This document shows positions 16,034-37,071 of a DNA stretch of 64,000 bases, in pieces. This stretch comes from Pseudomonas sp. JM0905a (GTDB lineage: Bacteria > Pseudomonadota > Gammaproteobacteria > Pseudomonadales > Pseudomonadaceae): the NCBI RefSeq assembly GCF_014700075.1, contig NZ_JACXBU010000002.1, forward strand, positions 574,603 through 638,602. Reading direction: 5' to 3'. A program made the position numbers and the translations under genes. Each line of letters begins with the position of its first letter. Positions within the stretch are counted from its first letter, which is position 1. The notes beneath the pieces are model-generated. The model worked only from the letters and a program-made list of their open reading frames with translations. It did not search any database and had not been told where the DNA came from.

Positions 16034-16045
16034 ATTGTACACAAT
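16034..16045. promoter_or_regulatory. Operator-like palindrome ATTGTACACAAT (GntR2 upstream)
   Basis: The near-perfect palindrome has its arms separated by one asymmetric central pair. On the minus strand it contains TACAAT, a possible -10 box for GntR2, so binding here would give autorepression. Confidence 0.6.
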
Positions 16046-16383
16046 CATCCCTCCTTGAACAGTTTCGCAGCAGCTCCAACCTCATTCCTGACCGGTTGCA
16101 CAGGTTTTTCCAGCAGGTTCCAACCAACTCGCTTCGAACGAGGGTTGAAGCGACAAACCTGCGGATTTCCCTACATTTTTTTGTCATAAGCGCGGCTGGC
16201 GCAGTGCCATTTCGTGCTTTCGCTCCCCTTCCTCCACACCACTCCTTTTTTGAGCTAATTCCATAAGCAATTGTTTTTTAACGACTTTATTAATTCGTTA
16301 GGCTGCAAATTGTCGCAGCCAAATCTAACCACGTGGTCAGCTTTCATTGATTGGTTCGTTTTTTCGAACATTGAAAACATTAT

Positions 16384-16411
16384 TTGTTTTTTTTGTATAC
16401 AAAGGCATAAT
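16384..16411 (+). promoter_or_regulatory. Permease promoter with embedded operator TTGTATACAA
   Basis: A -35 TTGTTT (16384-16389) and a -10 CATAAT (16406-16411) are spaced 16 bp. The perfect palindrome 16393-16402 lies wholly in the spacer, where a bound repressor would exclude RNA polymerase. Confidence 0.6.
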
Positions 16412-16543
16412 CGCGCCGTGACTTCCTGACTCTGCGGTCAAGTATTCAGGCAAGTGCACCACTCACGCCATCCGCCTCAGTCAGTCCGGAGCCAGCTCCC
16501 GGCTCTGGGTGAACAAAACAAAAGAGATGAGGAGTACCACGCT

Positions 16544-17893
16544 GTGGAAAGCATCAAACAACAAGAACAAGGAACGTACGTCGCTACACCGCCCGCCCAG
16601 GGCCTGCTTGAACGTCTCTTCAAGCTCAGCCTGCACGGCACCACCGTGAAGACTGAACTGGCTGCAGGCCTGACCACCTTCATCACCATGGCCTACATCA
16701 TTTTCGTCAACCCGAACATCATGGCCGATGCCGGGATCGATCATGGCGCAGCCTTCGTTGCCACCTGCCTTGCCGCAGCCTTCGGCTGCCTCCTCATGGG
16801 CCTCTACGCCAACTGGCCGGTAGGCCTTGCTCCGGGCATGGGCCTGAACGCCTTCTTTACCTACACCGTGGTCAACACCATGGGCTACAGCTGGCAGATC
16901 GCGCTTGGCGCGGTGTTCCTCTCCGGCGTGCTGTTCATGATCCTGACCTTCTCGCGAATCCGTGAATGGTTGCTCAACAGCATCCCGAGCAGCCTGCGCT
17001 TCGCGATGGGCGCGGGTGTGGGCCTGTTCCTCGGGCTGATCGGCCTGAAGACCGCCGGCATCGTGGTTGCCCACCCGGCCACCCTGGTGCACATCGGTGA
17101 CCTGACCTCCCCCGGCCCGCTGCTGGCTGCCATCTGCTTCCTGATGATCGCGGTACTGGAATACCGCCGAATCTTCGGCGGCATCCTGATCAGCATCCTC
17201 ACCGTGACCCTGATCGGTGTTGGCCTGGGCATCGTCAAGTTCGGCGGCGTGTTCTCCATGCCCCCGAGTCTGGCGCCGACCTTCATGGCCATGGACATCA
17301 CCGGCGCATTCAACGTGACCATGGTGAGCGTGATCCTTGCGTTCCTCTTCGTGCACATGTTCGACACCGCCGGCACCCTGATGGGCGTGGCCCAGCGTGC
17401 CAACCTGGTGCAGGAAGACGGTCGTATCGAGAACCTGTCCCGCGCCATGAAAGCGGACAGCGCCTCCAGCGTGTTCGGTGGCGTGCTCGGCGTACCGCCG
17501 GTCACCAGCTACGTAGAAAGTGCTGCGGGCGTTGCTGCCGGCGGCCGCACCGGCCTGACCGCAGTGACCGTGGGCATCCTGTTCATCGCCGCGATGTTCT
17601 TCGCCCCGCTGGCCGGCATGATCCCCGCCTACGCCACCGCCGGCGCACTGATCTATGTTGCGATGCTGATGATGGGCGGCATGGCCCACATCGACTGGAA
17701 GGAACACACCGAAACCATCCCGGCCATCGTGACCGTCATCATGATGCCGCTGACCTTCTCGGTCGCCGACGGTATCGCCCTGGGCTTCGTGACCTACGTC
17801 GCCATGAAGGCCTTCACCGGCAAGTGGAAGGAAGTCTCGGTGAGCCTGTACGCCCTCTGCGCCATCTTCGTGGCCAAGTTCATCTTCCTGTAA
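16544..17893 (+). CDS. AzgA-type purine permease (NCS2)
   Basis: Inner-membrane proton-coupled importer of purine bases (adenine, guanine, hypoxanthine or xanthine class). The 449-residue protein has about 12 hydrophobic segments. It carries COG2252 hallmarks: TVKTELAAGLTTFITMAYII at the first helix, VGLAPGMGLNAFFTYTVV, SLRFAMGAGVGLFLGLIGL and GVPPVTSYVESAAGVAAGGR. The start is GTG at 16544 behind GATGAGGAG (16526-16534); an in-frame extension to 16454 lacks such a site. It is divergent from GntR2 and controlled by the operator-bearing promoter above. Exact substrate cannot be read from sequence. Confidence 0.93.
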   Translation: MESIKQQEQGTYVATPPAQGLLERLFKLSLHGTTVKTELAAGLTTFITMAYIIFVNPNIMADAGIDHGAAFVATCLAAAFGCLLMGLYANWPVGLAPGMGLNAFFTYTVVNTMGYSWQIALGAVFLSGVLFMILTFSRIREWLLNSIPSSLRFAMGAGVGLFLGLIGLKTAGIVVAHPATLVHIGDLTSPGPLLAAICFLMIAVLEYRRIFGGILISILTVTLIGVGLGIVKFGGVFSMPPSLAPTFMAMDITGAFNVTMVSVILAFLFVHMFDTAGTLMGVAQRANLVQEDGRIENLSRAMKADSASSVFGGVLGVPPVTSYVESAAGVAAGGRTGLTAVTVGILFIAAMFFAPLAGMIPAYATAGALIYVAMLMMGGMAHIDWKEHTETIPAIVTVIMMPLTFSVADGIALGFVTYVAMKAFTGKWKEVSVSLYALCAIFVAKFIFL

Positions 17894-17913
17894 TCGCAGA
17901 TAGCGCTTCACCG

Positions 17914-17948
17914 GGCCCTGTCGCTTTGCGCCAGGGCCTTTTCATTTG
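17914..17948 (+). terminator. Terminator of the AzgA permease
   Basis: A 7-bp stem GGCCCTG/CAGGGCC (17914-17920, 17932-17938) is followed by TTTTCATTT, 21 bases after the permease stop. Confidence 0.8.
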
Positions 17949-18114
17949 CGCCAAGCGGCGTTCGCAATCATCCGATCCAGGCTGATGGTGATCGGCGCCC
18001 TCTCCTCCTGCCATAGCGCTTGATTCGCCTCTCGGCACAGATCCGTCCCGTTGCCCGACAGCGACAGACCAGAACGATTTCCGACCGTCGGCCAGCGAAA
18101 TGGAAAATGCCGCC

Positions 18115-18260
18115 TAGACTCTTCCCTAACCCGACATTCCCCCATACATCAGCGCAGCCCCTTGGGCTGGCGCACAGGCTTTGTGTTGTCGATTTCCGCA
18201 CTCCCTTGCGCATCTCCCCGTGATGCGTTTCAGCCCGGCCTTGTGCCGGGCTTCTTTTTG
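18115..18260 (+). ncRNA. Candidate orphan small RNA with its own terminator
   Basis: The 530-base gap between the permease terminator (17914-17948) and dctP has no convincing gene. It contains a second plus-strand terminator. Upstream are a TAGACT -10-like box (18115-18120) and an internal imperfect hairpin (about 18155-18178, CAGCCCCTTGGGCTG). A transcript of roughly 130 bases would fit. No good -35 box is visible, and it could instead be an attenuated leader of the TRAP operon. Confidence 0.25.
18232..18260 (+). terminator. Orphan rho-independent terminator upstream of TRAP genes
   Basis: A perfect 8-bp stem AGCCCGGC/GCCGGGCT (18232-18239, 18245-18252) is followed by TCTTTTTGG. No gene ends nearby on this strand; the closest is the permease, which already has a terminator about 300 bases earlier. 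Confidence 0.75.
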
Positions 18261-18393
18261 GCCGGACGTAAGGGCGGTTTGCTCCCAGGCGAGGCACCGC
18301 GCTACGCGCGACAGTAGCAAATTGCCGCCGAACATCCCGATGGGCGCATAGACTCTAATTATCGCCCCCTTCAGATTGCCCTCCGCACCCTGA

Positions 18394-19416
<1,023 letters not shown>

Positions 19417-19455
19417 CCACCCGGCCCAGCGCATCGGCCAACGGGAGGTGCCCCC

Positions 19456-20103
19456 ATGAACGCCCTGCGGCATGCCTGGAATCATTTCGAGGAAGGCCTC
19501 ATCGCGTTCCTCCTTGCCGCGATGACCCTGGTGACGTTCGCCTACGTCGTCGTCAATAACCTCTACACGGTCTTCTACAACCTTGCAGATCGCTGGCCCG
19601 GCGCCAGCGCCCCCCTCTTCGCCATCGGCGACAGCATCATGAGTGCGGCCCAGGCCATGACCTGGAGCACCTCGCTGACCAAGGCCCTGTTCGCCTGGCT
19701 GATATTCTTCGGCCTCGCCTACGGCGTGCGCGTCGCGGGGCACATAGGCGTGGACACCCTGGTCAGGCTCACCCCGCGCCCGGCACAGCGAGTCCTCGGC
19801 ATCATCGCCTGCAGCTGCTGCCTGGGTTATGCAGGATTGATGGCCGGCGCCAGCTTCGAGTGGATGCAGACGCTGATCGTCGCTGGCATCGGTGCGGAGG
19901 ACCTGGGCCACTATGGCATCCAGCAATGGCACATCGGCCTGATCGTGCCGCTGGGCTTCACTCTCGTGTTGTTCCGCTATGCGGGGATCTTCGTGCGAAT
20001 CCTGCGACGCCGCCAGATAGGCCTGAACCTCGCCGACGAAACCGCCGAAGCCCTCAAGCTGGCCGAGCACGACGAACGTGCGCCTGAGGAAGAACGGCCA
20101 TGA
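19456..20103 (+). CDS. TRAP transporter small membrane subunit (DctQ family)
   Basis: A 215-residue integral membrane protein with four predicted helices (about 14-35, 70-95, 110-135, 155-178), including LTKALFAWLIFFGLAYGVRVAGHIGVDTL, the DctQ signature region. It is longer than the usual ~160-170 residues because of an insert after helix 1 and a charged C-terminal tail (LKLAEHDERAPEEERP). The ATG follows GGGAGG, 39 bases after dctP, and its TGA overlaps the next ATG (ATGA). It pairs with DctM to form the transport complex. Confidence 0.92.
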   Translation: MNALRHAWNHFEEGLIAFLLAAMTLVTFAYVVVNNLYTVFYNLADRWPGASAPLFAIGDSIMSAAQAMTWSTSLTKALFAWLIFFGLAYGVRVAGHIGVDTLVRLTPRPAQRVLGIIACSCCLGYAGLMAGASFEWMQTLIVAGIGAEDLGHYGIQQWHIGLIVPLGFTLVLFRYAGIFVRILRRRQIGLNLADETAEALKLAEHDERAPEEERP

Positions 20104-21383
20104 CCATCCTCTTCCTCTTCTTACTGTTGTTTCTGCTGCTATTTATCGGCGTCCCCATAGCGATCTCCCTGGGACTTTCTGGCGCACTGACCATCATCCT
20201 GTTCAGTCCGGACTCGGTGCGCTCACTGGCCATCAAGCTGTTCGAGACGTCCGAGCACTACACCCTGCTGGCGATTCCGTTCTTCCTTCTGGCGGGCGCC
20301 TTCATGACATCCGGTGGCGTTGCGCGGCGCCTGATCGACTTCGCCAATGCCTGCGTCGGCCACATTCGCGGCGGTCTGGCGATAGCCGCGGTATTGGCCT
20401 GCATGCTGTTCGCCGCGCTTTCAGGGTCTTCACCAGCCACCGTCGCGGCGGTGGGTTCCATAGCCATCGCCGGTATGGTGCGTTCGGGATACCCGCCGGC
20501 CTTTGGTGCCGGCATCATCTGCAACGCCGGCACGCTGGGCATACTGATCCCGCCGTCGATCGTCATGGTGGTCTATGCCGCCGCCACCGAAACCTCCGTC
20601 GGCAAGCTGTTCGTTGCCGGCGTGGTGCCAGGCATCCTGCTCGGCACCACGTTGATGATCGCGATCTACATCGTCGCCATCCGAAAGAACCTGCCCGCCT
20701 TGCCCCGCGCGAGCCTGCGCGAATGGCTGAACGCCGGGCGCAAGGCGCTCTGGGGGCTGCTGCTGATGCTGATCATCCTGGGCGGCATCTATACCGGGAT
20801 GTTCACCCCCACCGAGGCCGCGGCGGTTGCAGCCGTCTATGCCGCCTTCATCGCCCTGTTCGTCTACAAGGACATGAAGCTGAGGGAGACGCCCAAGGTG
20901 CTGCTGGAGTCCGGCAAGCTCTCGATCATGCTGATGTTCATCATCGCCAACGCCATGCTCTTCGCCCATGTGCTGACGACCGAGCAACTGCCGCAGCAGA
21001 TCACCACCTGGGTGATAGACGCGGGCCTGTCGCCAATGATGTTCCTGTTGATGGTGAACCTGGTGCTGCTGGTGGCGGGAGCCTTCATGGAGCCGTCAGC
21101 GATCATCCTGATCCTGGCGCCCATCCTCTTCCCGATCGCGATCAGGCTGGGCATCGACCCTATCCACCTGGGCATCATCATGGTGGTGAACATGGAAATC
21201 GGCCTGGTCACCCCGCCAGTCGGGCTCAACCTGTTCGTCACGTCGGCGATTAGCGGAATGCCCGTCACCGCCACCATCCGCGCAGCCATGCCCTGGTTGA
21301 TGATCCTGTTGGCCTTCCTCTTCCTGGTCACTTATGTGCCCTGGATTTCCCTGGCTCTGCCGAATTGGCTTGGCATGAGCTGA
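20100..21383 (+). CDS. TRAP transporter large permease (DctM family)
   Basis: The sodium-driven translocation subunit, 427 residues and about 12 helices. Recognisable DctM segments are LFIGVPIAISLGLSGALTI, AALSGSSPATVAAVGSIAI, YPPAFGAGIICNAGTLGILIPPS and the C-terminal GLVTPPVGLNLFVTSAISG. The start overlaps the dctQ stop by 4 bases, so the three subunits are made from one message. No dedicated regulator is next to the operon. The convergent uraH gene follows after a terminator. Confidence 0.94.
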   Translation: MTILFLFLLLFLLLFIGVPIAISLGLSGALTIILFSPDSVRSLAIKLFETSEHYTLLAIPFFLLAGAFMTSGGVARRLIDFANACVGHIRGGLAIAAVLACMLFAALSGSSPATVAAVGSIAIAGMVRSGYPPAFGAGIICNAGTLGILIPPSIVMVVYAAATETSVGKLFVAGVVPGILLGTTLMIAIYIVAIRKNLPALPRASLREWLNAGRKALWGLLLMLIILGGIYTGMFTPTEAAAVAAVYAAFIALFVYKDMKLRETPKVLLESGKLSIMLMFIIANAMLFAHVLTTEQLPQQITTWVIDAGLSPMMFLLMVNLVLLVAGAFMEPSAIILILAPILFPIAIRLGIDPIHLGIIMVVNMEIGLVTPPVGLNLFVTSAISGMPVTATIRAAMPWLMILLAFLFLVTYVPWISLALPNWLGMS

Positions 21384-21462
21384 TCCGTAGCGTGATTTCC
21401 CGAGAAGCGCTACCGCCTGGCGTTGCGCCGGTTGTTTTCGACCCGGCACTTTTCTGCAGGCG

Positions 21463-21490
21463 AAAAAAAGGCCCGCAGTGTGGACGGGCC
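21463..21490 (-). terminator. Terminator of uraH
   Basis: Stem GGCCCG/CGGGCC (21470-21475, 21485-21490) followed on the minus strand by seven T residues. Its placement between converging dctM and uraH protects both. Confidence 0.85.
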
Positions 21491-21531
21491 GTAAAAGACT
21501 CCAGTGAGTCGAGGGTAACGAGTATTCGGTA

Positions 21532-21885
21532 CTAGCTGCCGCGATAGGTGGAATAGCTGTAGGGGGAGATCAACAGCGGCACGTGGTAGTGATCCTGCTC
21601 GGCGGAGATGCCGAAGCGCAGCACAACCACATCGAGGAAAGCGGGTTCGGCGAGCTTCACGCCACGGGCGCGGTAGTAGTCGCCGGCGTGGAAGTGGATC
21701 TGGTAGACGCCGCTCTGGTAGTCGGCACCTTGCAGCACGGGCGCATCGCAACGGCCGTCATCGTTGGTCGTGGCGGTGGCGACCAGCTCCAGGCCCGCGC
21801 CTTCTACGCGATAGAGCTCGATCTTGATATCACGGCCAGGGCAGCCGTGGGCGGCATCCAGTACATGCGTAGTCAAACGTCCCAT
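21532..21885 (-). CDS. uraH: 5-hydroxyisourate hydrolase
   Basis: Transthyretin-like enzyme converting 5-hydroxyisourate to OHCU, the second step of urate breakdown. The 117-residue protein starts GRLTTHVLDAAHGCPG, has the family histidines and arginine (His about 7, Arg about 44), FHAGDYY and HYHVPLLISPYSYSTYRGS at the C-terminus. The terminal YRGS is the HIUase signature that separates it from true transthyretin. The start at 21885 is chosen over an upstream GTG because it matches the family N-terminus. It is transcribed away from puuE, and an operator palindrome lies in the shared region. Confidence 0.95.
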   Translation of the reverse strand: MGRLTTHVLDAAHGCPGRDIKIELYRVEGAGLELVATATTNDDGRCDAPVLQGADYQSGVYQIHFHAGDYYRARGVKLAEPAFLDVVVLRFGISAEQDHYHVPLLISPYSYSTYRGS

Positions 21886-22040
21886 TGCTCGCTGGGCGTC
21901 TACCAGGCCATTGCGTGGCCAAGGCAGGAACGCCACACCTCCTCTGCTTGTTCATATCGGTGTGTGGTTGGGGTCGAAGCCCCGGTACGGAGCGCAGAAT
22001 AACATGCGATCGACGAAATGTAAGACATAAACTCAAAAAA

Positions 22041-22050
22041 TTGTACACAA
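22041..22050. promoter_or_regulatory. Operator-like palindrome TTGTACACAA (uraH side)
   Basis: Same 10-mer as the site before GntR2. It lies 156 bases upstream of the uraH start in an AT-rich stretch. I could not place a convincing -35/-10 pair around it. Confidence 0.5.
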
Positions 22051-22203
22051 TCTCCACACCATATACTGCCGAGCCTTTGCGACGACTGGCTCCACCAGGA
22101 TTTACGTGCACCGGCCAGCCATTGGGCCTTCTGTGATGCAGACCTGACCAGATGGGCAGGTTCGTTGACCGAACGCGAAATGTCGAATCAGACAAAGATT
22201 TGA

Positions 22204-22306: not shown

Positions 22307-23236
22307 GTGAGCGCCGAGTACCCACGCGACCTGATCGGTTACGGCAACAATCCTCCCCACCCGCACTGGCCGGGTGAGTCCCGCATCGCCCTGTCCTTTG
22401 TCCTCAACTACGAGGAAGGTGGCGAGCGCAATGTGCTCCACGGCGACAAGGAATCCGAAGCCTTCCTGTCCGAGATGGTGGCCGCCCAGCCGCTGCAGGG
22501 CGTGCGCAACATGAGCATGGAATCCCTCTACGAGTACGGCAGCCGCGCAGGTGTCTGGCGCCTGCTGAACCTGTTCAAGCAGCACGACATTCCCCTGACC
22601 ATCTTCGCCGTCGCCATGGCCGCCCAGCGCCACCCGGACGTGATCCGCGCCATGGTCGAAGCCGGCCACGAGATCTGCAGCCACGGCTACCGCTGGATCG
22701 ACTACCAGTACATGGACGAGGCCCAGGAGCGCGAGCACATGCTCGAAGCCATCCGCATCCTCACCGAACTGACCGGCGAGCGCCCGGTGGGCTGGTATAC
22801 CGGCCGTACCGGCCCGAACACCCGTCGCCTGGTGATGGAGGAAGGCGGCTTCCTCTACGACTCCGACACCTACGACGACGACCTGCCCTATTGGGACCCG
22901 GCCAGCACCGCTGAGAAGCCGCACCTGGTCATCCCTTACACCCTGGACACCAACGACATGCGTTTCACCCAGGTACAGGGTTTCAACAAGGGCGACGACT
23001 TCTTCGAGTACCTCAAGGACGCCTTCGACGTGCTCTACGCGGAAGGCAGCGCCGGCGCGCCGAAGATGCTGTCCATCGGCATGCACTGCCGCCTGCTGGG
23101 CCGTCCGGCTCGCCTCGCCTCCCTGGCGCGCTTCATCGAGTACGTGAAGGGCCACGAGAAAGTCTGGTTCGCCCGCCGCGCCGACATCGCCCGCCACTGG
23201 CACGCCACCCACCCGTTCAAAGAGCAAGCCAAATGA
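22307..23236 (+). CDS. puuE: Allantoinase PuuE (polysaccharide-deacetylase fold)
   Basis: Hydrolyses (S)-allantoin to allantoate. This 309-residue cofactor-independent allantoinase belongs to the NodB-like superfamily, not the amidohydrolase type. Family features are YPRDLIGYGNNPPHPHWPG at the N-terminus, FVLNYEEGGERNVLHGD, GHEICSHGYRWIDYQ and TGRTGPNTRRLVMEEGGFLYDSD. The start is GTG at 22307 behind AAGGAAG. It overlaps uraD by 4 bases, forming a puuE-uraD operon under the operator described above. Confidence 0.95.
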   Translation: MSAEYPRDLIGYGNNPPHPHWPGESRIALSFVLNYEEGGERNVLHGDKESEAFLSEMVAAQPLQGVRNMSMESLYEYGSRAGVWRLLNLFKQHDIPLTIFAVAMAAQRHPDVIRAMVEAGHEICSHGYRWIDYQYMDEAQEREHMLEAIRILTELTGERPVGWYTGRTGPNTRRLVMEEGGFLYDSDTYDDDLPYWDPASTAEKPHLVIPYTLDTNDMRFTQVQGFNKGDDFFEYLKDAFDVLYAEGSAGAPKMLSIGMHCRLLGRPARLASLARFIEYVKGHEKVWFARRADIARHWHATHPFKEQAK

Positions 23237-23748
23237 GCCGCTTCCAGACCCTGACCCCGTCCACCCTGTCCCGCGAAGCCTTCGTCGAAGCATTCGCCGA
23301 CATCTACGAGCACTCGCCCTGGGTTGCCGAGAAGGCCTTCGACCTGGGTCAAGACGACCGCATCGACGAAATCGACGGCCTGCACCAGCGCATGGCCGAC
23401 CTCTTGCTCAGTGCCAGCCATGAAGCCCAGCTGGCACTGATCAACGCTCACCCGGACCTGGCCGGCAAGGCAGCCGTCCGTGGCGAGCTGACCGAAGCCA
23501 GCACCAGCGAACAAGCCGGTGCCGGTATCCACGAATGCACGGCTGAAGAGTTCGCACGCTTCACCGAGCTGAACGACGCCTACAAGGCCAAGTTCGGGTT
23601 TCCTTTCATCATGGCGGTGAAAGGCAGCAACCGGCACCAGATCCTGGCGGCCTTCGAGGAGCGGATCCACAACTCTCCTGAAGTCGAGTTCTCCAGGGCG
23701 CTGGCCGAGATCAACAAGATCGCGCTGTTCCGTCTGCAGCAGATGTAA
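23233..23748 (+). CDS. uraD: OHCU decarboxylase
   Basis: Converts 2-oxo-4-hydroxy-4-carboxy-5-ureidoimidazoline to (S)-allantoin, completing the UraH reaction. It is 171 residues long and all helical. Family motifs are FVEAFADIYEHSPWVAEKAF with the catalytic His (in the EHSPW motif), LINAHPDLAGKAA, and NDAYKAKFGFPFIMAVKGSN. The ATG overlaps the puuE stop by 4 bases. In PAO1, as I recall, allantoicase follows next; here only a 161-base repeat-bearing gap precedes allA. Confidence 0.95.
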   Translation: MSRFQTLTPSTLSREAFVEAFADIYEHSPWVAEKAFDLGQDDRIDEIDGLHQRMADLLLSASHEAQLALINAHPDLAGKAAVRGELTEASTSEQAGAGIHECTAEEFARFTELNDAYKAKFGFPFIMAVKGSNRHQILAAFEERIHNSPEVEFSRALAEINKIALFRLQQM

Positions 23749-23860
23749 GCCGCAGTCGCACCGCTCCTATTCGAGACCGGGTGGGCAACGGCCCGCCCAT
23801 CGGCTCTCCACCTAATCGGAGAGCCACGGGGGAGGATGGAAATACCGCCCTCTCCACCAG

Positions 23861-23878
23861 CCCCTCCCCCTCGCGGGA
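23861..23878 (+). repeat. GC-rich leader element before allA (shared with guaD and hyi)
   Basis: The core CCCCTCCCCCTCGCGGGA lies 32 bases before the allA ATG. Close variants lie 35 bases before guaD (13564-13580) and in the stem-loop before hyi (37119-37146). Origin is unknown; REP-like element is the simplest reading. Confidence 0.45.
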
Positions 23879-23909
23879 TGGGAACCAGCAACGAACAAGT
23901 AGAACAGCC

Positions 23910-24413
23910 ATGCGAACCCTGAAGATCGAGCCCCTGACCAAAGAAGCCTTCGCCCCCTTCGGAGATGTGATCGAAACCGACGGCAGCGAGTACTTCATGA
24001 TCAACAACGGCTCCACCCGCCGTTATCACAAGCTGGCCACGGTCGAGACCGCCCAGCCCGACGACAAGGCAATCATCAGCATCTTCAGCGCCGAATCCCT
24101 CGAGATGCCTTTGCGCATCCGCATGCTGGAACGACATCCGCAGGGCAGCCAGGCTTTCATTCCGCTGCTCGGCAACTCCTTTCTGGTCGTGGTCGCGCCA
24201 ATTGGCGATGTACCTGTACCGGGCTTGGTCCGTGCCTTCCTCTCCAATGGCAGGCAGGGCGTTAATTACCATCGCGGCGTCTGGCACCACCCGGTGCTGA
24301 CGATCGAAAAGCGGGATGACTTCCTGGTGGTTGATCGCAGTGGTTCTGGCAACAACTGCGACGAGCATTACTTCACTGAGGACGAGCAACTGCTCCTCGA
24401 CCCCCACCACTAA
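23910..24413 (+). CDS. allA: Ureidoglycolate lyase
   Basis: Splits ureidoglycolate into glyoxylate and urea, linking ureide breakdown to gcl. The 167-residue cupin-like protein has MRTLKIEPLTKEAFAPFG, DVIETDG, LRIRMLERHPQGSQAFIPL, FLVVVAP and VNYHRGVWHHPVLTIE, all characteristic of AllA. The start is ATG at 23910; the upstream open frame is the repeat gap and is rejected. It is followed 52 bases later by puuD on the same strand. Confidence 0.95.
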   Translation: MRTLKIEPLTKEAFAPFGDVIETDGSEYFMINNGSTRRYHKLATVETAQPDDKAIISIFSAESLEMPLRIRMLERHPQGSQAFIPLLGNSFLVVVAPIGDVPVPGLVRAFLSNGRQGVNYHRGVWHHPVLTIEKRDDFLVVDRSGSGNNCDEHYFTEDEQLLLDPHH

Positions 24414-24465
24414 TAAGAGAAGCCCAACGATCGGCGTGCCGGTCGGCGGGAAAGAGGTAACAACT

Positions 24466-25773
24466 GTGGAAGCACATCTGATCGAATGGCTGAACCTGAG
24501 CATTCGCTGGGTTCACATGATCACCGGTATCGCCTGGATCGGCGCATCCTTCTATTTCGTCTGGCTGGAGAACAACCTCAACCGCGCCAACCCGCGCGAC
24601 GGGCTGTCGGGTGACCTCTGGGCCATCCACGGTGGCGGTATCTACCACCTGGAGAAATACAAGCTCGCCCCGCCGAAAATGCCGGACAACCTGCACTGGT
24701 TCAAATGGGAAGCCTATTTCACCTGGTTGTCGGGCGTTGCCCTGCTGACTGTGGTGTTCTACCTGAACCCGACCCTGTACCTGATCGCACCCGGCGTGGA
24801 CATTGCTCCGGCTACCGCCGTCGCCATCGGCATCGGCTCGCTGGTCGCAGGCTGGTTCATCTATGACTTCCTCTGCGACTCGCCGCTGGGCAAGACCCCC
24901 GCATTGCTCGGCCTGGTGCTGTTCGTACTGATCGTCGGCGCGGCCTGGGGCTTCACCCATGTGTTCAGCGGCCGTGGCTCTTACATCCATGTCGGCGCCC
25001 TGATCGGCACCATCATGGTCGGCAACGTGTTCCGCATCATCATGCCGGCCCAGCGCGCGCTGGTTAAAGCCATCGAAGAAAACCGCACCCCGGACCCGGT
25101 CCTGCCGGCCAAGGGTCTGCTGCGTTCGCGCCACAACAACTACTTCACCCTGCCGGTGCTGTTCATCATGATCAGCAACCACTTCCCGAGCACCTACGGT
25201 AGCCAGTACAACTGGCTGATCCTGGCCGGGATTGCGGTACTCGCGGTACTGGTGCGCCACTACTTCAACACCCGCCACGACAGCAACAAGTTCGCCTGGA
25301 CCCTGCCGGCCGGCGCCCTGGGCATGATCTGCCTGGCGTTCGTCACCGCGCCGAACTACAAGGCCGTCGAACCGAGCGTTGCCGTGGAGCCCGGCCACCA
25401 GGAGCAAGCCGCTCCCGCCGCCAGCAGCGCCGCTGCCCCGGCCAGCGAAAGCAAGCCTCAGGCTGCCGCACCGGCTGAATCCGCCGCCCCAGCCCAGGCC
25501 AGTGCCACCGGCTCTGACTTCGGCAAGGTCCACAGCGTGATCCAGGAGCGCTGCGCCGTCTGCCATTCCGCCAAGCCCTCCAGCCCGATGTTCACTTCGG
25601 CTCCGGGCGGCGTGATGCTCGACACCCCGCAGCAGATCCAGATGCTCGCACCGAAGATCCAGGCCCAGGCAGTCGCCAGCCAGATCATGCCGTTGGGCAA
25701 CATCACCCAGATGACCCAGGAAGAGCGTGACCTGATTGGCCGCTGGATCGCCCAAGGCGCCAAGACCAACTGA
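24466..25773 (+). CDS. puuD: Membrane urate hydroxylase PuuD with C-terminal cytochrome c
   Basis: Oxidises urate to 5-hydroxyisourate and passes electrons to the respiratory chain rather than to oxygen directly. The 435-residue protein begins with about eight membrane helices (LNLSIRWVHMITGIAWIGAS, FYFVWLENNL, then HNNYFTLPVLFIMISNHFPS). An Ala/Pro-rich linker (about 310-345) leads to a periplasmic cytochrome c domain with CAVCH (about 362-366) and a distal Met ligand region (SQIMPLGNITQMTQEER). The start is GTG at 24466 after AGAGG; upstream frame belongs to the allA overlap. It replaces soluble urate oxidase in this pathway. Confidence 0.95.
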   Translation: MEAHLIEWLNLSIRWVHMITGIAWIGASFYFVWLENNLNRANPRDGLSGDLWAIHGGGIYHLEKYKLAPPKMPDNLHWFKWEAYFTWLSGVALLTVVFYLNPTLYLIAPGVDIAPATAVAIGIGSLVAGWFIYDFLCDSPLGKTPALLGLVLFVLIVGAAWGFTHVFSGRGSYIHVGALIGTIMVGNVFRIIMPAQRALVKAIEENRTPDPVLPAKGLLRSRHNNYFTLPVLFIMISNHFPSTYGSQYNWLILAGIAVLAVLVRHYFNTRHDSNKFAWTLPAGALGMICLAFVTAPNYKAVEPSVAVEPGHQEQAAPAASSAAAPASESKPQAAAPAESAAPAQASATGSDFGKVHSVIQERCAVCHSAKPSSPMFTSAPGGVMLDTPQQIQMLAPKIQAQAVASQIMPLGNITQMTQEERDLIGRWIAQGAKTN

Positions 25774-25815
25774 GCATCAAGGGGACCTGCAACATCGGCT
25801 CCCCCAATGACCACG

Positions 25816-25877
25816 GCAGGCGGTGACCCCAAGCACCGCCTGCTTTAAAGCCTGCCCCCCAGGCGGGCTTCTTTTTC
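25816..25877 (+). terminator. Tandem hairpin terminator after puuD
   Basis: Two stems in series: GCAGGCGGTG/CACCGCCTGC (25816-25825, 25834-25843) and AAGCCTGCC/GGCGGGCTT (25848-25856, 25862-25870, one G-T pair), then CTTTTTCTT. Confidence 0.85.
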
Positions 25878-26008
25878 TTCCAGTAGAACCCGCAGTCCCC
25901 CGCCGGGTGCCACCCACCCGGCCAGCAACATGAATACCCGGCAAGCTGAACCCACGAGGTGCGGCATTGCCAAGCGACTTACAAGAACAAAAGCGCCCGA
26001 GGTGTTGC

Positions 26009-27355
26009 ATGACCCCAACGACAGAGCGAGAAATCGCCCTTTCGCCCGCTGACCAGCGCCTGCCCCTGATGCAATTGCTGCTTGTCGGTTTCCAGCATGT
26101 CCTGCTGATGTACGGTGGCGCCGTTGCCGTACCCCTGATCGTCGGCCAGGCCGCCGGTCTGTCCCGTGAAGAAATCGCCTTCCTGATCAATGCCGACCTG
26201 CTGGTCGCCGGTATCGCCACCATCATCCAGTCCATCGGCATCGGTCCGGTGGGCATCCGCATGCCGGTGATGATGGGCGCGAGCTTCGCCGCCGTGGGCA
26301 GCATGGTGGTGATGGCCGGGATGCCCGGCGTCGGTATCCAGGGCATCTTCGGTGCCACCATCGCCGCCGGCTTCTTCGGCCTTCTGCTCGCCCCCTTCAT
26401 GTCGCGCATCGTGCGCTTCTTCCCGCCGCTGGTGACCGGTACCGTGATCACCTCCATCGGCCTCACCCTCTTCCCGGTTGCGGTCAACTGGGCAGGTGGC
26501 GGTAGCCAGGCCAGCCACTTCGGTGCCCTGGAATACCTGTCCATCGCCGCTCTGGTACTGGGCACCATCCTGCTGGTGAACCGCTTCCTCAAGGGTTTCT
26601 GGGTGAACGTCTCGGTACTGATCGGCATGGCTCTGGGTTACGCCCTGGCCGGCGCCTGCGGAATGGTCGACCTCAATGGACTGGACGAGACTCCCTGGTT
26701 CCAGGTGGTGGAGCCTCTTCACTTCGGCATGCCGAAGTTCGAGCTGGCCTCGGTGCTGTCTATGTGTCTGGTGGTGGTGATCATCTTCGTCGAGTCCACC
26801 GGCATGTTCCTTGCCCTGGGCAAGATCACCGGTCGCGAAGTCTGTCCCAACGCACTGCGTCGCGGCTTGATGTGCGACGCTGGCGCCTCCTTCCTGGCGG
26901 GTTTCTTCAACACCTTCACCCATTCGTCCTTCGCCCAGAACATTGGGCTGGTGCAGATGACTGGTGTCCGCAGCCGCTATGTCACGGTCGCCGCAGGTGC
27001 CTTTCTGATCGGCCTGAGCCTGCTGCCCAAAGCCGCCTTCCTGGTCGCTTCGATTCCGCCGGCAGTGCTCGGTGGTGCGGGTCTGGCGATGTTCGGCATG
27101 GTGGCCGCAACCGGCATCAAGATCCTCCACGAAGCGGATATCAGCGACCGTCGTAATCAATTGCTGGTAGCCGTCAGCATGGGAATGGGCATGGCGCCGG
27201 TGGTTCGCCCCGAACTCTTCGCCCAGCTGCCCCACTGGATGGAGCCGATCACCCATAGCGGCATCGCCATGGCCACTGTCAGCGCCCTCACCCTGAACCT
27301 GCTGTTCAACATCCTGGGCGAGAAGGAGCGCAGCCGGCACTGCGCCGCCCACTAA
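26009..27355 (+). CDS. NCS2 nucleobase permease, probable urate/xanthine transporter
   Basis: A 448-residue inner-membrane symporter with about 14 segments. Signatures include FQHVLLMYGGAVAVPLIVG, the QSIGIGPVGIRMPVMMGASF half-helix, FVESTGMFLALGKITGREV (conserved Glu) and QNIGLVQMTGVRSRYV, the NCS2 Q-N-x-G box. This subset resembles urate and xanthine carriers such as UacT more than uracil permeases. The start is ATG at 26009 behind GAGG; a TTG at 25967 extends the frame without a ribosome site. It follows puuD, which fits urate as the substrate. Confidence 0.93.
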   Translation: MTPTTEREIALSPADQRLPLMQLLLVGFQHVLLMYGGAVAVPLIVGQAAGLSREEIAFLINADLLVAGIATIIQSIGIGPVGIRMPVMMGASFAAVGSMVVMAGMPGVGIQGIFGATIAAGFFGLLLAPFMSRIVRFFPPLVTGTVITSIGLTLFPVAVNWAGGGSQASHFGALEYLSIAALVLGTILLVNRFLKGFWVNVSVLIGMALGYALAGACGMVDLNGLDETPWFQVVEPLHFGMPKFELASVLSMCLVVVIIFVESTGMFLALGKITGREVCPNALRRGLMCDAGASFLAGFFNTFTHSSFAQNIGLVQMTGVRSRYVTVAAGAFLIGLSLLPKAAFLVASIPPAVLGGAGLAMFGMVAATGIKILHEADISDRRNQLLVAVSMGMGMAPVVRPELFAQLPHWMEPITHSGIAMATVSALTLNLLFNILGEKERSRHCAAH

Positions 27356-28626: not shown

Positions 28627-28632
28627 GATGGA

Positions 28633-29442
28633 TCAGAAGTGCACCTTGACCAGCAGGCTGGCGGTGTTCTGGTCGGTACCATCGAGGATCTCGTCACCCA
28701 GGAAGCTCTCGCTGTCGATACCGTACTTGTCCTTCCAGTAGTCGTACTCGAAACCAACGTAGAGCTGCTTCTCGCCCCAACCCATGGCCTTGCCCAGGTC
28801 GTACTTCACCTGCGGGTTGAAGTGCAGGTTGGCGTGGTAAGTGCCGCGATCGTTCTCGTCGTTGTCCACCACCCAGTCCATGAAGCCATCGATCAGGATG
28901 TCGGAGTTGCCCACCGGAATGGTGTAGCTCCACACCGGAGTGATCTGCCACACGTCGTCGCCCGGACGGCTGCCGTCGGTCTGGCGGTTGTAGAAGTTGA
29001 CCTGGAAGTAGTCGAAGCCGGGAACGGCCAGGTCGAAGCCCGGACCGATCAGGTAGGACTCGACGTCGCCTTCACCGAACTCGTAGGTCATGGCCAGCAG
29101 CACATCGGTCACCGGACCGAACTGGATCTTCTGGTCGAATATCTTGCCGAGGGACAGGCGCGGCTGGAATTCGCCGTAGTAGGTGTTGTCGCCGACCTGC
29201 GCATCCTTGTCACCGTTGTAGAAGATCTTGTCCAGGAAGAAGAAGTTATCGCCGTACTTCCAGCCATCCGCGTGCTCGAAGGTCACGGTCTGCTGGATCT
29301 CCGGATTGACCTTGAAGTTCTGGCCATAGAGGTAGGTCAGGCTGTTGTTCTGCCAGAACAGCAGGTCACCGGCGATGGCCTGGCCGCCTCCGAGCAATCC
29401 GGTCGTGAGGGCGAGGCAGTGCGGCAGATACTTGGCATTCAT
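28633..29442 (-). CDS. Tsx-like outer-membrane channel 2
   Basis: A 269-residue barrel protein with a signal peptide (CLALTTGLLGGGQAIA, cut before GDLL). Its N-terminus, LFWQNNSLTYLYGQNFKVNP, and EHADGWKYGDNFFFLDKIF match the Tsx/OmpK family; the C-terminus VKVHF again ends in Phe. It is a distant paralogue of the first Tsx-like gene, converging on it, with more acidic loops (GEGDVESY, DENDRG). Upstream at about 30 kb lie a TATAAT box and a TTGTGTACAA palindrome in the same orientation, so it may belong to the purine regulon. Confidence 0.9.
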   Translation of the reverse strand: MNAKYLPHCLALTTGLLGGGQAIAGDLLFWQNNSLTYLYGQNFKVNPEIQQTVTFEHADGWKYGDNFFFLDKIFYNGDKDAQVGDNTYYGEFQPRLSLGKIFDQKIQFGPVTDVLLAMTYEFGEGDVESYLIGPGFDLAVPGFDYFQVNFYNRQTDGSRPGDDVWQITPVWSYTIPVGNSDILIDGFMDWVVDNDENDRGTYHANLHFNPQVKYDLGKAMGWGEKQLYVGFEYDYWKDKYGIDSESFLGDEILDGTDQNTASLLVKVHF

Positions 29443-29567
29443 GGTTTTTCCCTTGTTGTAGTGGTGTAGGTTTCAGTTTTTCCACCCCGCACCCGCCCGA
29501 GACCCGCCCTTGGTCAGGGCAGGCTGCAGGCGGGTTCGGGACCGGAGGGAGTTACGCGCGCCGGGCG

Positions 29568-29888
29568 TCAGCCAGTAAGGCCGAGGCTGCAGTGGCGAGC
29601 GATACCGGACGGGCTGTCTTCAGCGTTGCGCTGTTCGGCTGCATCCAGGGGGTACTGCTGAACCTCGTTTACCGAGGTCAGGAAGACGAATTGTTCTGCA
29701 CGTGAATGGTTCAGCGGCTGGCCGAAAAGTCCGGGCAGACCTGCTGCAGGCAACGTCGCAGTAGCGATACCGGACGCGCGCATGGATAGGGGCTGGTGAA
29801 CGGCGATGAGGCGATGCCTCGGCCGTCGACGGCCTTGCCGGCCGTGGCGGAGTTCGGAGCGAACCCCGAAGGTGTCGGATGAACTCAT
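29568..29888 (-). CDS. Doubtful 106-residue ORF upstream of the second Tsx-like gene
   Basis: An in-frame ATG at 29888 gives a 106-residue, Arg/Ser-rich peptide (SSSDTFGVRSELRHGRQGRR) with no domain I recognise and no good ribosome site. The 14-mer AGCGATACCGGACG occurs at both 29598-29611 and 29763-29776, so the frame contains a partial internal duplication (ASGIATATLP versus SGIARHCSLG). It may be a decayed gene or plain leader sequence. Confidence 0.25.
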   Translation of the reverse strand: MSSSDTFGVRSELRHGRQGRRRPRHRLIAVHQPLSMRASGIATATLPAAGLPGLFGQPLNHSRAEQFVFLTSVNEVQQYPLDAAEQRNAEDSPSGIARHCSLGLTG

Positions 29889-29998
29889 GGGTAAAGCCTG
29901 CCTATTGTTTTTGTCGGTCGTGGGCTTACAGGGTGGCGATGAACACCCCATGTAGTTAGTCATCGGAAAAAGCTGATCTGGCGGTCAGGTTTTTCTGA

Positions 29999-30054
29999 AT
30001 TATATACACGCTGCGAACATCACAAACAACACTTTCTTTCAGAATTGTGTACAA
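29999..30054 (-). promoter_or_regulatory. Promoter TATAAT with upstream operator TTGTGTACAA, toward the second Tsx gene
   Basis: The minus strand has a consensus -10 TATAAT (complement of 29999-30004) and a weak -35 near 30022-30027. The palindrome 30045-30054 lies just upstream of the -35 region. The first minus-strand genes downstream are the doubtful ORF and the second Tsx-like porin. Confidence 0.5.
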
Positions 30055-30121
30055 ACTGCCGAGCGAGGTTCCGCCTGATTCGCGCTGAATGGCTCTGGCA
30101 CGGGCTTGCAGGCGATGCAGG

Positions 30122-30940: not shown

Positions 30941-31006
30941 GACCTCCTCCTTGTTCTTCTTGGGCGGGGTAGACAGGAGCGGGATCACCCCGCTCCCGGT
31001 GGCGAG

Positions 31007-32365: not shown

Positions 32366-32520
32366 GCGTATTCTCCTTCGCCTCGAAAGCGATCTTGTTT
32401 TCAATATTCAGAAAGGAACGGGGTCCTTGGGGGACGCCATGGCAAGGCGCGTCATCGAAGACAGTAGGTCTCCTACCGCGAGATGACGTAACGCAGCCAG
32501 GGCTAACCCAAGAAGCTCGA

Positions 32521-33516
32521 TCAGCCGCCGGTCATGCTCATGAAGCGAACAACCTGGACCTGGGAGTCCGCTTGGAAATGGTGCCGCTCAGGCTTGAGCC
32601 TGAGGGCATCGATCAACGCCGCGCGCAGCCGCTCGCCATCGCCGGGGTGACGACGGATCAGCGCCTTGAGGTCCAGCGCGCCTTCGTGACCGAGGCAGAG
32701 CACCAGCTTGCCTTCGGCGGTGACGCGCACACGGTTGCAGTCGCCGCAGAAGTTGCGGCTATGAGGCGAGATGAAGCCGACCTGGGTCTCACTGCCAACC
32801 ACCTGGTAGTAGCGCGAAGGCCCGCCGGTGCGGTAGCTGCTGGGCAATAGCTGGAAGCGCTGCTCCACTCGCTCGCGCACTTCTTCCGAGGTGCAGAGGG
32901 TGACTTTGCGCTCGTGGCTGGAGACGCTGCCGAGGGGCATCTCCTCGATGAAGCTGATATCCAGCCCGCAGTCCACCGCAAAGGCGACGAGGTCCTGAAC
33001 TTCGTCATCGTTGCGGCCTTTCTGTACCACGGTGTTCAGCTTGATCCGACGAAATCCGGCAGCACGCGCAGCGTCGATGCCGGTCAGCACCTGGTCGAGA
33101 CGATCGCGACGGGTGAAGGCGGCGAAACGCTCGCGCTGCAGGGAATCGAGGCTGATGTTAAGACGGGTGACCCCGGCCTTGCGCAGGTCGGCGGCCATGT
33201 GACCGAGCTGGGAACCGTTGCTGGTGATGGCCAGGTCTTCCAACTCCTGGCGGGCGCCCAGGCGCGTCAGCAGCGAGTTCAGCCCCTTGCGTACCAACGG
33301 CTCGCCGCCAGTGATGCGGATGCGCTTCACGCCGAGGCCGATGAAGGCATCAGCGACTGCGTAGAGTTCCTCAAGACTGAGGATCTGCGCCCGAGGTGCG
33401 AAGACCATGTCTTCGCTCATGCAGTAGGTGCAACGGAAGTCGCAGCGGTCAGTGACCGAGAGGCGCAGGTAGGAAATTCGACGCCCGAAGGGATCGAGCA
33501 AGTGGTTGTCTTGCAT
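32521..33516 (-). CDS. moaA: GTP 3',8-cyclase (molybdenum cofactor biosynthesis MoaA)
   Basis: Radical-SAM enzyme for the first MoCo step. The 331-residue protein carries CDFRCTYC (4Fe-4S, SAM; residues about 26-33), the glycine-rich TGGEPLVRKGL motif, and a C-terminal cluster with CGDCNRVRVTAEGKLVLCLG. It ends in SMTGG, the double glycine needed for activity. As I recall, PAO1 has this second copy (moaA2) beside the glyoxylate genes. Co-location with xanthine dehydrogenase suggests dedicated cofactor supply. The start at 33516 is chosen at the family N-terminus LLDPFGRRISYLRLSVTDR. Confidence 0.95.
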   Translation of the reverse strand: MQDNHLLDPFGRRISYLRLSVTDRCDFRCTYCMSEDMVFAPRAQILSLEELYAVADAFIGLGVKRIRITGGEPLVRKGLNSLLTRLGARQELEDLAITSNGSQLGHMAADLRKAGVTRLNISLDSLQRERFAAFTRRDRLDQVLTGIDAARAAGFRRIKLNTVVQKGRNDDEVQDLVAFAVDCGLDISFIEEMPLGSVSSHERKVTLCTSEEVRERVEQRFQLLPSSYRTGGPSRYYQVVGSETQVGFISPHSRNFCGDCNRVRVTAEGKLVLCLGHEGALDLKALIRRHPGDGERLRAALIDALRLKPERHHFQADSQVQVVRFMSMTGG

Positions 33517-33597
33517 GGGTGACGTCTGCCGCAACACGCACCGGACAGGACTCCGATGACATGGACGGATGCCGAATGGAAACAGAATCAAAACTTT

Positions 33598-33607
33598 TTG
33601 TATACAG
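33598..33607. promoter_or_regulatory. One-mismatch operator TTGTATACAG between moaA and TetR genes
   Basis: This matches the regulon palindrome except at the last base. It lies 82 bases from the moaA start and 111 from the TetR start, within the divergent intergenic space. Confidence 0.4.
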
Positions 33608-33717
33608 GAAATTCATCCAGTGGCTCGCTTGAGAGCCCTGCAAAGCGGGTGATAACATGCCCGACCTCTCGCCGGCCGGCCTTCCTGGCGCCCGGGCGAG
33701 TCAGACAAGGAGCCGAT

Positions 33718-34347
33718 GTGAGTAGCATTCGCGAGCGCAACAGAGACCTCATCCTGCGCGCGGCCAGCGAGGAATTCGCCGAAAAAGGGTTCGCCGCCAC
33801 CAAGACGAGCGACATCGCGGCCAAGGCCGGCCTGCCCAAGCCCAACGTCTACTACTACTTCAAGTCTAAAGAGAACCTCTACCGCGAGGTCCTCGAGAGC
33901 ATCGTCGAGCCTCTGCTGCAGGCGTCCGTGCCCTTCAATCAGGCCGGCCACCCCCATGAAGTGCTCACGGCCTATATCCGCTCGAAGATCCGCATCTCCC
34001 GCGACCTGCCCTACGCTTCCAAGGTGTTCGCCAGCGAGATCATGCACGGTGCCCCACACCTCTCGCAGGAACAGACCGAGCACCTCAACCTGCAAGCCAA
34101 GCACAACATCGAGTGCATCCAGGGCTGGATCGATCAGGGCCTGATGGCCAAGGTCGACCCCCATCACCTGCTGTTCAGCATCTGGGCGGCAACCCAGACC
34201 TATGCCGACTTCGATTGGCAGATTTCCACCGTCACCGGCAAGCCCAGCCTCAGCGACGCCGACTATGACGCCGCCGCGGAAACCATCATCCGCCTGGTGA
34301 TCAAGGGCTGTGAAGTGGAAGAAAAGGTTTCGGCGAAGAGCGCCTGA
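33718..34347 (+). CDS. TetR-family transcriptional regulator
   Basis: A 209-residue regulator. The N-terminal HTH (RERNRDLILRAASEEFAEKG, TKTSDIAAKAGLPKPNVYYY, FKSKENLYREVL) is canonical. The C-terminal ligand domain (about 80-200) has FASEIMHGAPHLS and the conserved WAATQTYADFDWQ, as in RutR-like regulators of nucleobase breakdown; a pyrimidine or purine ligand is a guess from that. The start is GTG at 33718, with AAGGAG at 33707-33712. It is divergent from moaA, in the position I recall for PA1504. Confidence 0.9.
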   Translation: MSSIRERNRDLILRAASEEFAEKGFAATKTSDIAAKAGLPKPNVYYYFKSKENLYREVLESIVEPLLQASVPFNQAGHPHEVLTAYIRSKIRISRDLPYASKVFASEIMHGAPHLSQEQTEHLNLQAKHNIECIQGWIDQGLMAKVDPHHLLFSIWAATQTYADFDWQISTVTGKPSLSDADYDAAAETIIRLVIKGCEVEEKVSAKSA

Positions 34348-34421
34348 TACCGACTGCACCGGCCCCTACAGAAAAGCAGCCGCTTCCAGCCATAGTCGCG
34401 ATTTGCCCCCCCCTAAAGACT

Positions 34422-34487
34422 TCGCCCCCACAGAGATGCACTCCCTGTGGGGGCGAATTCATTCGCTGAGGGCTGCGCAGCAGCCCC
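34422..34487. repeat. REP element with two hairpins after the TetR gene
   Basis: A 12-bp stem TCGCCCCCACAG/CTGTGGGGGCGA (34422-34433, 34445-34456) continues into GAATTCATTCGC, the core of the repeat family at 14981. A second stem GGGCTGC/GCAGCCC follows (34470-34486). Confidence 0.7.
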
Positions 34488-34496
34488 TATCAAGCG

Positions 34497-34934
34497 TCAG
34501 GCCGCGCCAGCGTCCGCCTTCAGGCCGGCCGCTTCTACCGCGCTGACTGCGCACTGCTCGTCGATATCGGACGTATCGCCGCTGATGCCAATGGCGCCGA
34601 TCACGACTCCATGACCATCACGGATCAGCACACCGCCCGGTGCCGGCACCAGGTTGCCGTCGGCCAGATTGTTCACCGCACCGATGAAGGCCGGACGCTG
34701 CTGCGCGTCGGCAGCGATCAGGCGCGACCCCTTGCCCAGGGCCACTGCGCCCCACGCCTTGCCGATGGCGATTTGCGGTCGAAGCATGCTGGCGCCGTCC
34801 TGGCGCTGCAGGGTGATCAGGTGGCCGCCGGCATCCAGCACGGCGATGGTCAGCGGTGCCGTGCGCAGCTCGCGACCAACGGTCAGGGCATGGTTGGAAA
34901 TGCTCACAGCGGTTTCCAGGGTCAGGGTGGTCAT
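34497..34934 (-). CDS. GlcG/HbpS-family heme-degrading-type protein
   Basis: A 145-residue protein of the GlcG/HbpS fold: LETAVSISNHALTVGRELR, TIAVLDAGGHLITLQRQDGA, ALGKGSRL, and GGVLIRDGHGVVIGAIGISGDTSDIDEQCA. Members are annotated as glycolate-locus proteins of unknown role, cobalamin adenosyltransferase-like folds or heme-binding proteins; none is proven for this locus. The start at 34934 is set by GAGGAA; the longer upstream frame is rejected. It is divergent from gcl, and a one-mismatch operator lies between them, so a role linked to glyoxylate or glycolate use is plausible. Confidence 0.88.
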   Translation of the reverse strand: MTTLTLETAVSISNHALTVGRELRTAPLTIAVLDAGGHLITLQRQDGASMLRPQIAIGKAWGAVALGKGSRLIAADAQQRPAFIGAVNNLADGNLVPAPGGVLIRDGHGVVIGAIGISGDTSDIDEQCAVSAVEAAGLKADAGAA

Positions 34935-35111
34935 TTTCAAGCGTTCCTCGTGAGTGGTTGAACCTTGTGCGGCGTCGTCTGGGCCAGGGCTGGCGCATTC
35001 CTGTATCCACGCGGGCGTTTTCCAGCCCATCCTGCGACGCATCCGAAAGCTGTAGCTCACTATCCCACCGAACACAAAAAAATCAACAGATAGATACAAT
35101 CACATTATTTT

Positions 35112-35121
35112 TTGTATACAG
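35112..35121. promoter_or_regulatory. One-mismatch operator TTGTATACAG between GlcG-like gene and gcl
   Basis: The same variant as at 33598. An additional half-site GATTGTATCT on the minus strand is near 35086-35095, giving two phased sites toward the GlcG-like gene. Confidence 0.4.
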
Positions 35122-35217
35122 TATTTCCGTCAGCGTTCTGACTATCGCTGGAGAGCCCCGTAAAACAGGCGTTTTAAAAGAGTCGACACCCTGCGACCTT
35201 TAGCCTCACAAATGGCC

Positions 35218-35270
35218 TTGACCCTTCAGTCAGACGATGAATAGAATCCAGCCACGTAGCTTGTATACAA
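35218..35270 (+). promoter_or_regulatory. gcl promoter with downstream operator TTGTATACAA
   Basis: A -35 TTGACC (35218-35223) and a -10 TAGAAT (35242-35247) are spaced 18 bp. The perfect palindrome 35261-35270 starts about 13 bases after the -10, that is just past the predicted transcription start, and ends 25 bases before the ATG. Confidence 0.65.

Positions 35271-35295: not shown

Positions 35296-37071
<1,776 letters not shown>

Follow-up and report, generated by a model that had tools for sequence, protein, structure and literature searches.

In Pseudomonas aeruginosa, the GntR-family repressor UgmR (PA1520) is reported to bind the DNA ahead of gcl and of PA1513–PA1518, with relief by uric acid (PMC12694930, citing Xu 2022, as told in the accessible part of that paper). 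The same part names PA1504, a RutR-like TetR protein, among the candidates for the UgmR-independent response of gcl to allantoin. In their accessible portions, PMC12772324 and PMC12248450 cite UgmR without discussion, and a chromatin immunoprecipitation sequencing (ChIP-seq) survey (PMC13086498) lists PA1504 among motility regulators and places PA1520 under the stringent response and persistence, with neither purines nor uric acid mentioned in the accessible main text. Among the FadR-subfamily GntR regulators, HpxS included, one form of site consists of GT and AC boxes 2 nt apart (TKGT/ACMA), according to the available part of PMC4494728. We analyzed a stretch of 64,000 nucleotides of Pseudomonas sp. 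JM0905a (contig NZ_JACXBU010000002.1, positions 574,603 to 638,602), called here the window, in which one palindrome, TTGTRYACAA, recurs before purine and glyoxylate genes. With high probability, as judged from its distribution and conservation, this TTGTATACAA-type palindrome is the operator of GntR2, a predicted UgmR orthologue encoded in the window, at the purine and glyoxylate genes and at several distal genes.

Very probably, GntR2 and UgmR are orthologues. GntR2 combines the GntR helix-turn-helix with an FCD sensor domain, as expected of a UgmR orthologue, and its gene has the same chromosomal setting, with the purine cluster, a RutR-like TetR gene, and gcl-hyi-glxR-glxK-pykF. UgmR itself presumably carries the FCD domain as well. 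The core of the idea is therefore already known; the original prediction, which was partly supported, had left the known regulator unnamed. Within the literature searched, the distal targets and a second palindrome are new, and subscription studies such as Xu 2022 may report more. Searching the literature with the letters of the palindrome yielded, judging by titles and among the matches listed, no work recognized as dealing with this operator.

A pattern scan of the window recovered all eight sites listed in the original prediction and no others, six being exact copies of TTGTRYACAA and two being TTGTATACAG, with one mismatch. Dinucleotide shuffles averaged 2.43 matches when one mismatch was tolerated, and eight or more were reached in 1 of 100 shuffles. 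Seven of the sites lie in gaps between annotated genes, as had been claimed for all of them. The site at 33598 falls within the longest TetR reading frame (33556–34347), but the RutR-like domain begins at about residue 59, so translation of tetR probably starts near 33718, which would leave the site between moaA and tetR. The assignment of the site at 30045 to a second Tsx-like gene is uncertain, since a small open reading frame (ORF) without family match (29568–29963, minus strand) is nearer (82 bp) than the Tsx-like gene (about 600 bp).

In the original prediction, occurrence of the motif at background frequency across the genome was named as a refutation. The sites proved to be far from background: TTGTRYACAA was found 14 times in 5.79 Mb against two occurrences of the reversed control. 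Six of these copies are in the 19 kb between 16,034 and 35,270 of the window, three TTGTATACAA copies and five TTGTGCACAA copies lie elsewhere. The nine copies without a GC core all stand before plausible targets, the three outside the window being those of an NCS2 xanthine/urate-type permease, a chemoreceptor, and the gap between divergent VOC and ABM genes. The TTGTGCACAA palindrome is similar but has GC at its core, and none of its five copies is in the window. When one mismatch of any kind was allowed, TTGTATACAA matched 24 places in the genome against 17 for the control; hence, single-mismatch copies count only where they are conserved. The form TTGTATACAG, or CTGTATACAA, has four copies in the genome: in the moaA/tetR gap, between the GlcG-like gene and gcl, before moaC, and before queF, where it is probably the −10 box of the promoter. 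One GntR-type operator family stands at both modules, as had been proposed for a local repressor; the locality did not hold, since other contigs carry copies too, at the permease, the chemoreceptor of the McpH type, moaCDE, and the VOC/ABM pair.

The scan of related pseudomonads suggested in the original prediction was run on 148 genomes of the family, which are related, so that the counts are not independent, and the palindrome was enriched where GntR2 is present. The 73 genomes with a GntR2 orthologue (71–100% identity) contained 390 exact TTGTATACAA copies (5.3 per genome; control 20), and the 75 genomes without it contained 90 (control 66). Among the latter, the mean was 2.3 copies (control 0.95) for the 19 genomes with only a GntR paralogue of 38–42% identity and 0.84 (control 0.86) for the 56 that lack the orthologue and the paralogue alike. 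The same was seen within genera: 2–10 copies in 16 GntR2 genomes of g14 and 0–1 in two without GntR2, 2–5 copies in 17 GntR2 genomes of g15 and none in the one without it. GntR2 occurs in 68 of the 70 genomes with gcl, and the other two lack both a site at gcl and any exact TTGTATACAA copy in the genome.

Conservation at the core promoters was followed in the best 80 of 553 candidate loci, all from named Pseudomonas and none from P. aeruginosa. These 80 loci held 198 exact copies of the palindrome, and neither the reversed nor the scrambled control had any. A site precedes gntR2 in all 80 (the nearest within 300 bp being TTGTGTACAA in 76 and CTGTGTACAA in four), which fits the autorepression postulated earlier. 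Every locus holding azgA (43/43) had a site before it, and paired sites were found at puuE wherever the gene was present (32/32). The gcl promoters of 54 of the 70 gcl genomes were examined, and one or more sites, exact or with a single mismatch, were present in 37 of the 52 with GntR2 (18/18 in genus g1, 14/16 in g9, 1/1 in g4, 4/4 in g14, 0/13 in g15) and in neither of the two without it. The Tsx-like gene had an upstream site in 5/5 same-genus genomes examined (with one mismatch in G017), and 25 of the 30 tetR loci examined had a site in the gap between tetR and moaA. In genome G082, the distance from gntR2 is about 0.25 Mb for azgA and uraH/puuE and about 2.5 Mb for gcl and the permease (0.25–2.6 Mb across targets), and each has kept its site. 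Other copies in G082, at a glycine-zipper gene and at azurin, an eno copy in G075, and the queF copies were inspected and not counted as targets.

The core letters differ between promoters. Read toward the gene, the gntR2 and uraH sites have a GT core, which is asymmetric; in the relatives this is always so at gntR2 and almost always at uraH. The sites of azgA, puuE, the permease, the chemoreceptor, and VOC mostly have an AT core, and the difference possibly tunes affinity. The spacings of the gcl operator pair (128, 139–140, 148–150, and 155–157 bp) looked helically phased. DNA looping between paired operators was nevertheless dropped, with gntR2/azgA and uraH/puuE spacings varying freely; one operator per promoter in each divergent pair fits better.

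The distal targets were conserved to different degrees. The VOC gene, held by 42 genomes, has an exact copy starting 21–47 bp ahead of it in 30 of 30 loci examined. It is divergent from the ABM gene (PF00903 and PF03992, both of uncharacterized function), and the two have the exact TTGTATACAA in common (L011:1074–1847 in our genome, C39; also L225). The distal permease, held by 56 genomes, had a site in 29 of 30 loci, and the chemoreceptor gene had one within 300 bp in 26 of 30. The best solved match of the chemoreceptor sensor domain is that of McpH (8bmv, E 4e-79), with Y, R, W, F, and N aligned at the five places of the purine motif, and in several g15 genomes the coordinates place the chemoreceptor gene next to tetR. 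Before moaCDE (moaC is held by 131 genomes), the nearest 320 bp or so contained an exact or single-mismatch copy in 36 of the 50 GntR2 genomes examined and in none of 20 without GntR2. Xanthine dehydrogenase requires the molybdenum cofactor, so joint control of the moa genes with the purine genes would make sense.

Of the other explanations, the one that survives best is that some copies, chiefly those 21–47 bp before start codons, are −10 boxes (TACAAT) resembling the operator by chance, which we regard as unlikely. TTGTATACAA followed by T does contain TACAAT, moaC in genomes without GntR2 keeps TACAA with the other bases of the palindrome varying (GGGTATACAA, GGGTCTACAA), and queF has an exact or near copy at a −10-like position in two genera. 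Where GntR2 and its paralogue are both absent, however, the full palindrome is no more frequent than the control; the moaC copy of genus g9 starts 96–107 bp ahead of the gene, apart from the −10 region; and the gntR2, azgA, puuE, and permease copies of our own genome lie about 50–110 bp out with the palindrome entire.

It is somewhat less probable still that VOC/ABM, the chemoreceptor, and the permease answer not to GntR2 but to a paralogous FadR-type GntR regulator with the same motif. Such paralogues (38–53% identity) exist in some genomes, with the palindrome upstream of 14 of the 20 examined; the only one examined in a GntR2 genome (G001) had none upstream. In our own genome, on the other hand, only GntR2 itself matches at E 1e-40 or better; none of the 42 VOC genomes or the 56 permease genomes lacks GntR2, and the permease and chemoreceptor functions suit purines. 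In genomes of genus g6 without GntR2, the paralogue (38–40%) has two upstream palindromes, mostly about 210 bp apart (186 bp in one locus).

Least probable, at a chance we put very low, is binding of TTGTATACAA and repression of both modules by the RutR-like TetR instead of GntR2: the site in the moaA/tetR gap and the presence of TetR orthologues in the same 73 of the 148 genomes would suit it, but 14 of the 19 genomes without GntR2 and this TetR (11/11 in g6, 3/8 in g5) have the palindrome in front of a GntR paralogue, and TTGT-N2-ACAA is a form of FadR-subfamily GntR sites. In addition, another, RutR-like palindrome stands at the permease, xdhA, azgA, and gcl, and the protein reported to bind these promoters in P. 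aeruginosa is UgmR, of the GntR family (PMC12694930, accessible part). The original prediction had named GntR2 or the TetR regulator; the sites of the paralogues and the second motif favored the former and made the latter a less likely binder.

Several observations weigh against GntR2 as the binder of all these sites. It was matched to PA1520 by the order of the genes and by function, not by the PAO1 UgmR sequence. The set of TetR orthologues is identical with that of GntR2, so co-occurrence alone cannot name the binder, and the attempt to separate the two in this way failed (73 = 73). Genome G024 has a GntR2 orthologue (71% identity) yet no exact TTGTATACAA, and 5 of the 19 paralogue-only genomes had no palindrome before the paralogue. 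Despite the presence of GntR2, gcl promoters were without a site in all 13 genomes examined in g15 and in G108 and G141. Four of 30 chemoreceptor promoters lacked the site, and 6 of 64 genomes with the chemoreceptor lacked GntR2. The moaC site was missing in 14 of the 50 GntR2 genomes, and the own-genus moaC copy overlaps a probable −10 box (TACAAT) present also in genomes without GntR2. The 13 g15 gcl promoters had neither of the two palindromes, though GntR2 and TetR are both present, and control of gcl must differ in that genus.

The second palindrome, YTGACYnnnnRGTCAR, has four exact copies in the window, two of them before xdhA, where no TTGTATACAA-type site was found in the upstream DNA. 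With at most one mismatch, the window had eight copies against 1.5 in shuffles. Genome-wide it showed no overall enrichment (15 exact copies against 13 in the control), but purine promoters account for 5 of the 15, the four in the window and one at the distal permease. In the relatives, the exact form was found at xdhA in 69/69, at azgA in 41/43, at gntR2 in 1/80, and at puuE in 0/32 (18 with one mismatch). At gcl it was present in 14 of 18 genomes of our genus and in 2 of 36 other gcl stretches (G020, G075), and at the distal permease in 13 of 30 (13 of the 14 closest). No exact copy was found at VOC, the chemoreceptor, or moaC (0/30 each), and two g14 genomes have one in the moaA/tetR gap. 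The arms are constant and the spacer letters variable, and the form resembles the E. coli RutR consensus, TTGACCAnnTGGTCAA. The RutR-like TetR appears the likelier reader of the second palindrome, with GntR1 as the rival candidate; the gene of the latter (7535–8245) lies beside xdhA, and a GntR1 relative was found at the same locus on the strand opposite xdhA in 57 of 68 loci.

Altogether, we propose that a GntR2 dimer would bind the operator with one TTGT/ACAA arm per half-site and block transcription. Several operators start 26–62 bp ahead of the start codon and may overlap the −10 box. Uric acid, whether imported or produced by xanthine dehydrogenase, would act through the FCD domain as its ligand and free the promoters of GntR2, by analogy with UgmR. 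The predicted regulon would serve sensing (the McpH-type chemoreceptor), entry (the Tsx-like channel and NCS2 permeases), and catabolism of urate and allantoin (uraH, the puuE operon) and of glyoxylate (the gcl operon), and would further include moaA and moaCDE for the molybdenum cofactor, the uncharacterized VOC/ABM pair, and gntR2 itself. As a second input, the RutR-like TetR would be the likeliest binder of YTGACYnnnnRGTCAR at azgA, gcl, the permease, and, doubled, xdhA. In its widest form, in which the uric-acid-sensing GntR runs a whole foraging program, VOC/ABM supplies a missing step or a detoxifier, and TetR on xdhA, azgA, gcl, and the permease provides the UgmR-independent allantoin response of gcl, the scheme is tentative, with a little less than an even chance.

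Table 1. Genes, predicted operators, and copies of the second palindrome in the window.
Feature	Coordinates	Strand	Remarks
Second palindrome, copy 1	8516–8531	.	before xdhA
Second palindrome, copy 2	8539–8554	.	before xdhA, 23 bp on
GntR2, predicted UgmR orthologue	15156–15926	-	Pfam GntR 7.8e-18, FCD 3.7e-23
Predicted operator TTGTACACAA	16035–16044	.	before gntR2; TTGTGTACAA in the gntR2 direction
Predicted operator TTGTATACAA	16393–16402	.	before NCS2/AzgA-like permease
Second palindrome	16426–16441	.	at azgA promoter
NCS2/AzgA-like purine permease	16454–17893	+	Pfam Xan_ur_permease
uraH, hydroxyisourate hydrolase	21532–21936	-	TIGR02962
Predicted operator TTGTACACAA	22041–22050	.	before uraH; TTGTGTACAA in the uraH direction
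Predicted operator TTGTATACAA	22224–22233	.	before puuE operon
puuE, uraD, ureidoglycolate lyase, urate oxidase (PF06181), xanthine/urate permease	22307–27355	+	
Tsx-like outer-membrane channel	28633–29442	-	Pfam Channel_Tsx
Predicted operator TTGTGTACAA	30045–30054	.	upstream of small ORF and Tsx-like channel gene
moaA, GTP 3',8-cyclase (molybdenum cofactor)	32521–33591	-	longest frame; TIGR02666
Predicted operator TTGTATACAG	33598–33607	.	moaA/tetR gap; one mismatch
TetR with RutR-type C-terminal domain	33718–34347	+	predicted start GTG 33718; TIGR03613 below cutoff, Pfam TetR_C_3
Predicted outer operator TTGTATACAG	35112–35121	.	gap between GlcG-like gene and gcl; one mismatch
Second palindrome	35218–35233	.	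begins 43 bp ahead of proximal gcl operator
Predicted proximal operator TTGTATACAA	35261–35270	.	begins 35 bp ahead of gcl start codon
gcl, hyi, glxR, glxK, pykF (glyoxylate operon)	35296–41801	+	

The window also contains xdhABC, guaD, a TRAP transporter, and an 8-oxoguanine deaminase gene. The names glxR and glxK were given from gene order and Pfam, and the best PDB match of pykF was 7oo1 (E 1e-237), P. aeruginosa PykF. The Pfam scan gave no match for the small gene labeled GlcG-like in the original prediction. The TRAP transporter genes (18418–21383) occupy the azgA–uraH interval and are missing there in two close relatives (G015 and G011). A urea transporter gene (41861–42856, Pfam UT) directly follows pykF, downstream of the gcl operon; the breakdown of allantoin yields urea.

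Compared with the described systems, the locus is closest to that of UgmR, likewise a GntR-family regulator adjoining a purine cluster and repressing gcl and the allantoin cluster, with a RutR-like TetR in the vicinity and gcl, hyi, glxR, glxK, and pykF grouped (PMC12694930, in the part accessible). Beyond the UgmR regulon, the one predicted here takes in the chemoreceptor, moaA and moaCDE, the distal NCS2 permease, the Tsx-like channel, and the VOC/ABM pair, the last, with its exact operator in all loci examined, being a candidate purine or glyoxylate enzyme. The first palindrome would thereby turn a two-operon repressor into the center of a predicted program joining chemotaxis, uptake, cofactor supply, and catabolism. 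HpxS has a role in purine use, and HpxS and GntR2, compared by the form of their sites only, may belong to the same orthologous group. TTGT-RY-ACAA fits the TKGT/ACMA boxes of this FadR-subfamily regulator with their 2-nt spacing (PMC4494728, available part). The predicted target chemoreceptor resembles McpH of P. putida and the dCache_1PU family in having the motif Y121, R129, W140, F167, and D169(N), and differs from McpH in Asn for Asp169, a variant listed in the accessible part of PMC11245519. Purine derivatives raise the transcript levels of mcpH, their receptor gene, in P. putida, according to an earlier study (Lopez-Farfan 2017) cited in the accessible part of PMC6363813; this is what derepression would predict, and the predicted regulon would explain it. 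Like E. coli RutR, the local TetR has a RutR/YcdC C-terminal domain; it differs from RutR in falling below the equivalog cutoff (169 of 368 bits; PRK15008, 154 against 230) and in the presence of the second-palindrome sites on purine genes. With that palindrome, the question of the UgmR-independent allantoin response of gcl gains a concrete DNA site.

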